From Terriglobales bacterium (GTDB taxonomy: Bacteria; Acidobacteriota; Terriglobia; Terriglobales; Acidobacteriaceae): a stretch of DNA of 32,459 bases. Numbering within the stretch: the first letter of the stretch is position 1; every line of letters starts with the position of its first letter. Shown here one piece after another: positions 20,798-24,916 of the stretch. The notes under the pieces were generated by a model, which had not been told where the DNA came from, made no database searches, and worked only from the letters and a program-made list of their open reading frames with translations. Location of the stretch: contig JAMXLI010000031.1 of NCBI GenBank assembly GCA_024281115.1, positions 1 through 32,459 on the forward strand, read 5' to 3'. Made by a program: the position numbers and the translations under genes.

Positions 20798-22696
<1,899 letters not shown>

Positions 22697-22709: not shown

Positions 22710-22752
22710 GTAAAAGCCCGAAAACGGCGGCGCCTACCGCTCACCGGAATCC

Positions 22753-22772: not shown

Positions 22773-22855
22773 TTGTGTGCTCAACGAATTAGATGCCCAA
22801 GGCGCGTTTTGGATAGGCGAAAACGCCGAAGGTGCCACAGCCTGTTGGGTGACTT

Positions 22856-22900: not shown

Positions 22901-23452
22901 TTAAGTACCTTCTTCCTCCGGCGCGCCCGATCCCAGGTAAGGCAAATTGCGCCCCATTTGCGGCGAACCCAGCCCGTACCCCACCAGAAACTTTTCATCG
23001 ACCAAAAACCCGAAATAGTCGGGCTGCAACGCCACACGCCGGGCGGCCTGACGATCCAGAAACGTAGCCAGCTTCACCGAGGCGGCGCCGCGCGCCAACA
23101 TGCCGCTCACCAGGAAATCGGTGGTCACACCAGAGTGCAGGATTCCCTCCACCAGGAGTACGTGGTGACCGCGGACCTCGATTTCCGGGCTGAAGAAAAT
23201 TTCCTTGGTGGTGGCCCGCCCGGTCTGCCGGTCACGATACAGGGGCTTGATGAACTCGCACAGCAGCGGCAAATCCAGGGAGCGAATCAGATCGGCGAAG
23301 AAAACAAAGCTGTTTTCCAGAACGGCGAGCACATGCAAGGTTCGGCCGCGGTAATCCTCGGTGATTTGTCGGCCGAGTTCCTGCACGCGCTTATCGATTT
23401 GGGCGGCAGTAATCAGAGGCACAGGCACTGCCGGCTGCGGTGTAGCTTTCAA
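22901..23452 (-). CDS. hpt: Hypoxanthine phosphoribosyltransferase-like protein with altered active site
   Basis: The fold and length (183 residues) are those of HPRT, which makes IMP/GMP from PRPP. Segments such as ITAAQIDKRVQELGRQI, FFADLIRSLDLP, VLLVEGILHSGVT, KFLVGYGL and GRNLPYLG align well with HprT of Firmicutes. But most active-site places differ: the PPi-loop LKG is LEN (E46, N47), the flexible-loop SSYG is PLYR, and the PRPP motif VEDIIDSG is VEGILHSG (Asp to G103, catalytic Asp to H106). The purine-contact Lys in LLDKP is Arg134, and the metal Asp after GYGL is Gly162. Only the Arg before NLPY is kept (R168). It is therefore probably not an active HPRT. The start used is a TTG with GGAGAG upstream; a TTG at 23503 would add 17 residues. 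The position between tilS and ftsH is the classical hpt place. Confidence 0.8.
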   Translation of the reverse strand: MKATPQPAVPVPLITAAQIDKRVQELGRQITEDYRGRTLHVLAVLENSFVFFADLIRSLDLPLLCEFIKPLYRDRQTGRATTKEIFFSPEIEVRGHHVLLVEGILHSGVTTDFLVSGMLARGAASVKLATFLDRQAARRVALQPDYFGFLVDEKFLVGYGLGSPQMGRNLPYLGSGAPEEEGT

Positions 23453-23515
23453 TAGGCTCTCCAGGGCAGGCAGCCTGAGCCACAAGCCGCCAGCCGGGCG
23501 CAACGCGTCCTGCGG

Positions 23516-24916
23516 CTATTGTCGCTGAGCGGCAGGGTCATGCAAAGGTATCTCTTGGATGCAAACCGCGTGGGTTTCCTGAAGGGAGGGCCGCAGGTGT
23601 TCCGGAACGGGAAAACCGCGGATCCAGACAATCTCGTCACCATTGGCAATGACCGGCCATGCCCGGCGCTGATCCACCGGAACATGCTGTTCCTGCAGAA
23701 GTTCCTTCACCTTGCGCGGGGCGCGAGTGTGGGCCGGCCAGAAACGATCTCCCGGCCGCCAGTTGCGCAGCGTGAGCGGGGAAGATAACACCTTGGTGCT
23801 GAGCAGGGCACCGGGATGGGTGCCATTCAACGCGACAACCTCAACCTTGAAACTCACGCCGATTTCCGGAGCGGCGGCCCGCCCCGGAGCGGGCAGGCTG
23901 TATTCGTAATCCGGTACGGGGCCGTGCGGCGAGGGACGAAAATGGATGGCGTCATCCCGGCGGAGCGCCTGCCAGCCGCGGGGCAGCACGACCGTTTTTT
24001 CGCGCTCCGGCCCTTCCGCCGCCGCGAGAATTTCGTGCACCTCGGCGAATTCGAGGCTCAGGCCGTGGGCCTCGGCCGCGCTGCGGACAACACGCCGCTG
24101 CAGCGCCAGCGGAAGCTTGCGCAGGAAGTTCACGGAAATGGGTTGCTGGTGAACGACGATGCCGCGGACCTGGGCCGTCCAATACTCTTCCTCCGCGCGC
24201 GCAACCTCGGCGAGTTCGGCCAGCCGCTCGACCGCGGCAGGGTTGAAGTTGCGCTCGAGCTGGGGAACGAGCGCGTGGCGCACCAGATTGCGCCGGTGCT
24301 GCAAGTCCAGGTTGGTGGCATCCTCCCGCCATTGTTGGCCGATGCTCTGCAGGTACTCCCGCAGTTCGGCGCGGCGAATACCCAGCAGCGGCCGCAGAAT
24401 CGCCAGCTCGGCGGCGGCATTGTGGCTTTCCACAGCGACTCGAGGGTAGATGCCGGCCAGGCCGCGCGTTCCGGCTCCGCGCAGCAGTTTGAGCAGCACC
24501 GTCTCGGCCTGGTCGTCGAGGGTGTGCGCGGTGACCACTTTGTCGAGACGCCCTTCTGCCATCAGGTTCGCGAAACAGCCATAACGAAGCGCTCGCCCCG
24601 CGGCTTCCAAGCTGATGCCTTCCCGGTTGGAAACGCCCGGAGCGTCTCCGGAGGCGAAATGCGCCTCCAGTTGGTGCTGCCGAGCCAAGCCCGTCACAAA
24701 CTGCTGGTCGGCATCCGCTTCAGCGCCACGGATCTGGTGGTGGAAGTGCAGCACCGAGAGAACCAGGCCCAGTTCATCCCGCAGCTCGATCAGCAGGCGC
24801 AAGAGCGCAACCGAATCGGCGCCGCCCGAAACCGCCACCCCGGCCCGGTCTCCGGGCGCCAGCAGCCGGTGAGCGCGGATATGGGAAGCGAGGCGTTGGG
24901 CAAGGCGATGCACCAT
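23516..24916 (-). CDS. tilS: tRNA(Ile)-lysidine synthase TilS
   Basis: TilS converts C34 of the CAU-anticodon isoleucine tRNA to lysidine with ATP and lysine, an essential step for reading AUA. The N-terminal PP-loop is clear: AVSGGADSVALLRLL (28-42), followed by VLHFHHQIRGAEAD and the substrate loop with VVTAHTLDDQAETVLLKLLRGAGTRGLAGI, which is the family's strongest signature. The C-terminal substrate-binding domain includes LRNWRPGDRFWPAHTRAPRKVKELLQEQHVP. At 466 residues it has the long two-domain form. It lies 18 bases after the GT87 gene, and the hpt-like gene follows it closely, so these probably share a transcript. Confidence 0.95.
   Translation of the reverse strand: MVHRLAQRLASHIRAHRLLAPGDRAGVAVSGGADSVALLRLLIELRDELGLVLSVLHFHHQIRGAEADADQQFVTGLARQHQLEAHFASGDAPGVSNREGISLEAAGRALRYGCFANLMAEGRLDKVVTAHTLDDQAETVLLKLLRGAGTRGLAGIYPRVAVESHNAAAELAILRPLLGIRRAELREYLQSIGQQWREDATNLDLQHRRNLVRHALVPQLERNFNPAAVERLAELAEVARAEEEYWTAQVRGIVVHQQPISVNFLRKLPLALQRRVVRSAAEAHGLSLEFAEVHEILAAAEGPEREKTVVLPRGWQALRRDDAIHFRPSPHGPVPDYEYSLPAPGRAAAPEIGVSFKVEVVALNGTHPGALLSTKVLSSPLTLRNWRPGDRFWPAHTRAPRKVKELLQEQHVPVDQRRAWPVIANGDEIVWIRGFPVPEHLRPSLQETHAVCIQEIPLHDPAAQRQ

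Follow-up and report, generated by a model that had tools for sequence, protein, structure and literature searches.

A probable HPRT-fold pseudoenzyme encoded between tilS and ftsH in Terriglobia

The tilS–ftsH intergenic gene and its product

A protein of the hypoxanthine phosphoribosyltransferase (HPRT) fold that is probably non-catalytic, and that has probably kept the ability to bind a purine nucleotide, is encoded between tilS and ftsH in the window analysed here, the whole 32,459-nt stretch of contig JAMXLI010000031.1 (assembly GCA_024281115.1, Terriglobales bacterium). Eroded orthologues occupy the same position throughout the sampled Terriglobia (Acidobacteriota), in many families, and this pattern suggests that the gene has retained a second role, kept by selection across this class of soil bacteria. 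The favoured role, with a probability of about 0.42, is that of a non-catalytic partner of TilS, possibly gated by nucleotide.

The features of the locus are listed in Table 1. The open frame spans positions 22901..23503 of the minus strand, and its TTG start (23450-23452) is preceded four bases upstream by GGAGAG; 63 bases separate the end of tilS from the gene start. As judged by its ribosome-binding site, ftsH likely starts with the GTG at 22696 and not at 22744, 48 bases inside the longest ORF. An earlier note, made from the DNA sequence of the window, had described an intact frame whose product aligns with HprT over its whole length, and both statements are confirmed. The frame is open; the TIGR01203 profile matches the window protein with 126.3 bits, under the curated cut-off of 150 bits, and the Pfam Pribosyltran profile with 71.3 bits; and the T. 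thermophilus HPRT 3acb aligns with it end to end (E=2.9e-33), HPRTs being the top matches in a search of the PDB. The AlphaFold model of the protein (mean pLDDT 84.8; its C-terminal hood is weak) matches HPRT structures at a Z of about 22 over 153-168 aligned residues, so that the HPRT fold is confirmed for the whole chain. An ORF fusing TilS to HPRT was looked for, and none was found.

Table 1. Features of the tilS–ftsH locus in the window
Feature	Position	Strand	Basis or remark
Putative HPRT-fold pseudoenzyme gene, 183 aa	22901..23452	(-)	TTG start and SD GGAGAG, frame open
tilS, upstream neighbour; PP-loop and TilS_C domains	23516..24916	(-)	domain matches
ftsH, downstream neighbour	20798..22696	(-)	likely GTG start 22694-22696, GAGGAG before it
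ATCSAAW-spacer-GCATCTAA element in ftsH leader, ECF-sigma-like promoter (putative)	22789..22814	(-)	conservation
Loop I LKG to LEN, residues 45-47, PPi-binding loop	23312..23320	(-)	alignment
Flexible loop II SSYG to PLYR, residues 70-73	23234..23245	(-)	alignment
Cys65	23258..23260	(-)	invariant in the pseudoenzymes of the window's family
PRPP loop III VEGILHSGVT, residues 101-110	23123..23152	(-)	alignment
Purine-binding Lys to Arg134	23051..23053	(-)	alignment
Metal-binding Asp to Gly162 (GYGLD to GYGLG)	22967..22969	(-)	alignment
Arg168 (B. subtilis Arg165), kept	22949..22951	(-)	alignment

Remodelling of the active site

The five changes by which the earlier note had set this protein apart from the enzyme (LEN, PLYR, VEGILHSG, Arg134 and GYGLG) are all present. 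The VEDIIDSG motif of HPRT reads VEGILHSG in the window protein (residues 101-108), so that within PRPP loop III Glu102 is kept, the following Asp is replaced by Gly103 and the catalytic Asp by His106, and Ser107, Gly108 and Thr110 of the phosphate loop are kept. Roles of pocket residues were taken from a study of B. subtilis and B. anthracis HPRT with ppGpp (PMC6783271), whose residue numbers are used where given, Asp159 being placed by alignment. In that numbering Glu99, Gly105, Thr107, Phe152, Leu158 and Arg165 are kept, and Asp100 is replaced by Gly, Asp103 by His, Lys131 by Arg and Asp159 by Gly.

Across the window's GTDB family, for which 96 distinct sequences were compared, Gly, Ala or Val but never Asp stands at position 100, position 103 is His in 79, Gln in 9, Glu in 6, and Met and Lys in one each, again never Asp, the Asp159 position is Gly in 93, Ser in 2 and Ala in 1, and loop I carries Glu or Asp followed by Asn or Asp. 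A substitute Asp at a neighbouring position, which the earlier note had named as evidence against its reading, is not seen in this family. In the comparison set of 73 distinct HPRTs from other loci of Acidobacteriota genomes, Glu99, Asp100, Asp103 and Asp159 are each present in all 73. The same set of changes recurs in 96 distinct orthologues and every one of these canonical copies keeps the acidic residues, which puts the changes far beyond chance. Cys65 is found in 100% of the window's family and 93% of the other Terriglobia, and in 1% of canonical copies.

The residues said to define the enzyme are all altered here, but the exchange of the purine-binding Lys for Arg is not diagnostic, since 8 of the 73 intact copies also have Arg; Lys is still present in many eroded ones. 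Loss of the catalytic Asp holds for all 96 family members, but not for every relative, as this Asp is retained in 5 of 29 sequences from other Terriglobia and in nearly all eroded copies of other classes. Outside the family, position 106 holds Gln, Asp, Glu, Asn, His or Tyr. What eroded copies have most generally lost is loop I and the second acidic residue. Five eroded tilS-linked copies (L138, L157, L159, L160 and L316) have lost both of these and keep the catalytic Asp; they may be intermediate stages of erosion.

In HPRTs, the metal-binding and catalytic acids together with loop I are needed for phosphoribosyl transfer. The loss of these elements should abolish this reaction, and the kept phosphate turn, hydrophobic cleft and Arg are what would hold a purine nucleotide monophosphate. 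The same residues underlie the main rival to a TilS partner, namely a stand-alone sensor that binds a nucleotide monophosphate in place of PRPP-Mg and signals to a target other than TilS, a reading that we consider rather unlikely. Gly105, Thr107 and Arg165 are present in 96 of 96 family sequences and the hydrophobic cleft residues Leu/Ile/Val101, Phe/Tyr152 and Leu158 are nearly invariant, with the ligands of metal and pyrophosphate gone, and regulators of the phosphoribosyltransferase (PRT) fold such as PurR and PyrR, in which this fold serves regulation instead of, or besides, catalysis, provide a parallel. Unlike the window protein, PurR carries a DNA-binding domain, and matches of the PyrR profile to the window protein are weak. 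The exchange of Lys for Glu in loop I should also make the pocket less favourable to pyrophosphate and to the 3′-diphosphate of ppGpp, given the pocket roles in PMC6783271. A sensor of this kind would, however, leave the synteny with tilS unexplained, and the retained residues could serve folding alone. Less probable still is a phosphoribosyltransferase that is weak or has an altered specificity, or another enzyme using the remodelled pocket with Glu46, Glu102 and His106. Glu46 (94 of 96) and Glu102 (92 of 96) are conserved in the family, and the fold tolerates loss of the invariant Asp, as T. cruzi HPRT mutants at this residue with a solved structure show; but position 106 varies among His, Gln, Glu, Met and Lys in the family, unlike a catalytic residue, and the protein has also lost loop I and both other acidic ligands.

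A second, canonical HPRT

A canonical HPRT is encoded on another contig of the same genome (200 bits), as the search for a second hpt called for in the earlier note revealed. In a tree built without the columns of the catalytic motifs, 33 copies encoded elsewhere form one clade (100/99) with all tilS-linked copies outside it, and 31 of 34 eroded Terriglobia rows group together at 96/87. Two HPRT lineages therefore coexist, with erosion confined to the tilS-linked one, and the tree places the window gene in this tilS–ftsH-linked lineage and not in that of the genome's predicted working HPRT. The features of a pseudoenzyme paralogue, namely lost catalytic residues, purifying selection (see below) and a paralogue lineage with an intact active site, are found together in the putative pseudoenzyme of the window. 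Human PRTFDC1, an HPRT paralogue with an altered catalytic site that exists beside a working HPRT, is similar in this respect, and its structure (2jbh) is among the PDB matches of the window protein; it has fewer replacements, is eukaryotic and, unlike the window protein, has no link to tilS or ftsH.

Copies were counted in 50 genomes. Outside Terriglobia, 16 of 16 sampled genomes in which the tilS-linked copy is the sole, motif-intact HPRT have it intact, and wherever a sampled genome has a second canonical HPRT this copy is eroded; a second HPRT was not found in G333 and G343, two genomes outside Terriglobia with an eroded copy. Fisher tests of this association gave p of about 1e-6 over all rows and 2e-4 outside Terriglobia, values that ignore kinship and overstate the association because of shared ancestry. 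On the tree, erosion takes as few as 2 state changes, and of the 7 independent pairs 6 carry no information. With so few independent contrasts, the association between an eroded copy and a second HPRT is suggestive rather than proven. G346, which has two tilS–ftsH-like contigs, was left out; each contig carries a tilS- or ftsH-linked HPRT (L264 and L265), one intact and one eroded, possibly as a result of contamination.

Many carriers of the eroded gene also have a canonical HPRT, and the eroded protein could be an inactive partner tuning this enzyme through mixed oligomers, a prozyme of the kind for which trypanosomes provide a precedent (PMC8836349). A prozyme is very unlikely here, because a canonical HPRT was not detected by two different searches in at least 10 Terriglobia genomes with the eroded copy, one of which (G041) is 98% complete. 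Yeast and Trypanosoma brucei have a second APRT, a purine phosphoribosyltransferase duplicate reported to lack the relevant activity (PMC8836349), which differs from the window protein in belonging to the APRT family, in being eukaryotic and in lacking the tilS–ftsH neighbourhood. Pseudoenzyme-like duplicates of HPRT and APRT are thus known from eukaryotes. For bacteria, searches of an open-licence library for HPRT pseudoenzymes or for the tilS–HPRT–ftsH gene order returned no paper on the window's family, and none describing an HPRT pseudoenzyme that a whole class has fixed at tilS–ftsH.

Distribution and selection

The survey covered the phylum Acidobacteriota. Within Terriglobia, tilS and ftsH flank the eroded gene, with few exceptions, in almost all loci on a long enough contig, and loci from named genomes include Terriglobales, Acidobacteriaceae, Ca. 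Sulfotelmatobacter and Ca. Korobacter MAGs. An initial set of 25 genomes from the window's family, its own genome among them, included 14 with an eroded orthologue, and in each of these 14 carriers the canonical copy was matched as a second HPRT. In other classes the position between tilS and ftsH holds intact or differently eroded HPRTs, with the eroded motif types LNS/VGSVIDTG, LED/VGGILDTG, MKS/LDDIVDTG, LRG/VSTVLDTG and LKQ/VYGVMGTG. In many Terriglobia tilS and ftsH have remained side by side with the gene missing between them, several genera having lost it, and it is therefore dispensable for both neighbours.

In 491 pairs whose dS lies between 0.1 and 1.2, the median dN/dS of the window gene is 0.16 and no pair exceeds 0.42, so that the gene is under purifying selection and conserved like a functional gene. 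In the measurable subset of the same pairs, ftsH has a median of 0.10 and tilS one of 0.21, the latter lowered by a few zero values from saturated dS. For the carriers, these data exclude that the gene is simply decaying towards loss, as its absence from several genera might suggest, frames being intact in almost all copies and the motif positions conserved class-wide. The earlier note had argued for selection on a non-catalytic role, and had held that lack of conservation of the altered residues in relatives would speak against it; the alignment that it had proposed, of homologues between tilS and ftsH, shows the altered motif recurring throughout the class, and the argument is well supported by this recurrence together with purifying selection, the canonical paralogue in the same genome and the persistence of the eroded gene in genomes without another HPRT.

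Relationship to TilS and FtsH

A TilS partner is the favoured reading because a retained role should concern the neighbouring genes and because TilS and HprT provide a precedent in B. subtilis, the only one that was found. According to a review (PMC8152036, citing Lin 2014), the TilS-HprT complex activates ftsH in that organism. The same three neighbours are found in B. subtilis, with hprT between tilS and ftsH, but its HprT is a working enzyme, whereas the window protein lacks the catalytic residues and its complex with TilS is a predicted one. The window protein is a full-length chain with the same fold as bacterial HprT/Hpt in general (TIGR01203) and shares with it the phosphate loop, the purine cleft, Arg165 and the tilS–ftsH neighbourhood seen in Bacillus; it differs in its sub-cut-off score and in the loss of loop I, the second acidic residue, the catalytic Asp and the metal-binding Asp.

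In the proposed course of events a second HPRT would have taken over salvage, leaving catalysis by the tilS-linked copy free to erode, and another role of the tilS-linked protein would have stayed under selection. On the model of the B. subtilis complex, this role is most likely to assist TilS as its non-catalytic partner. Such a partner may be gated by a purine nucleotide bound in its altered pocket, and may act on TilS activity, on ftsH expression or on both. The proposed link to TilS and ftsH draws on the tight synteny, on the Bacillus precedent and on correlated divergence: the partial correlation between the window protein and tilS given ftsH is 0.51-0.52 (permutation p 0.0005 in the wider set), that between the window protein and ftsH given tilS is 0.38-0.59, and that between tilS and ftsH given the window protein is 0.22, below both others. 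These correlations cover the three genes of the locus without an unrelated control gene and are for that reason weak evidence. Against a role in TilS or ftsH function, tilS and ftsH persist without the window gene in sister genera, and, against control of ftsH, a promoter-like element of its own precedes ftsH both with and without the window gene. It is possible, though doubtful, that the tilS-linked HPRT had an ancestral second function in common with Firmicutes, as a partner of TilS, in the control of ftsH or in both, and that Acidobacteriota, perhaps more than once, stripped it of catalysis to leave a purine-nucleotide-gated regulator of TilS. If so, the window protein would be a natural separation-of-function form of the tilS-linked HPRT.

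These observations bear on the placement of hprT between tilS and ftsH in distantly related bacteria and on how general the reported moonlighting of TilS–HprT may be. With a stripped HPRT and a separate working one, the non-enzymatic role can be deleted, mutated or assayed with purine salvage undisturbed. The label "hypoxanthine phosphoribosyltransferase" is probably wrong for the tilS-linked gene in Terriglobia.

The ftsH leader element and variation at the locus

The 8-mer GCATCTAA precedes ftsH in 80 of 92 loci of the window's family, against a shuffled maximum of 5, and in most of those loci (leaders of L013-L135) an ATCSAAW box lies upstream of it at a fixed spacing. The composite ATCSAAW-GCATCTAA has one strict match in the window's own genome, at this ftsH leader. 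GC[AG]TCTAA sites with a GAACC-like upstream box precede ftsH in several genomes without an HPRT-like gene. The 8-mer was considered as an operator or leader-RNA site for the window protein and rejected, as related sites occur where the gene is absent; for the same reason an ECF-type promoter is the simpler reading, and the element reads best as such a promoter, which would let ftsH be transcribed separately. The leader of ftsH in several genomes without an HPRT-like gene carries the variant GCGTCTAA with the GAACC-like box.

The TilS_C domain is missing from TilS in several genera that have no HPRT-like gene (ORFs of about 330-430 aa; L181-L183, L186, L187, L190, L191, L216, L223 and others). 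Most carriers have a full-length TilS, the exceptions being L022 and L027, which have the gene and a short TilS; loss of TilS_C was rejected as a correlate of gene loss on account of these two loci and of confounding by ancestry. At L047, L048 and L073 the HPRT-like gene adjoins tilS, with no ftsH in the fetched downstream flank, and at L056, L062, L064 and L066 the HPRT-like gene and ftsH lie about 580-600 bases apart, compared with the usual 100-200.
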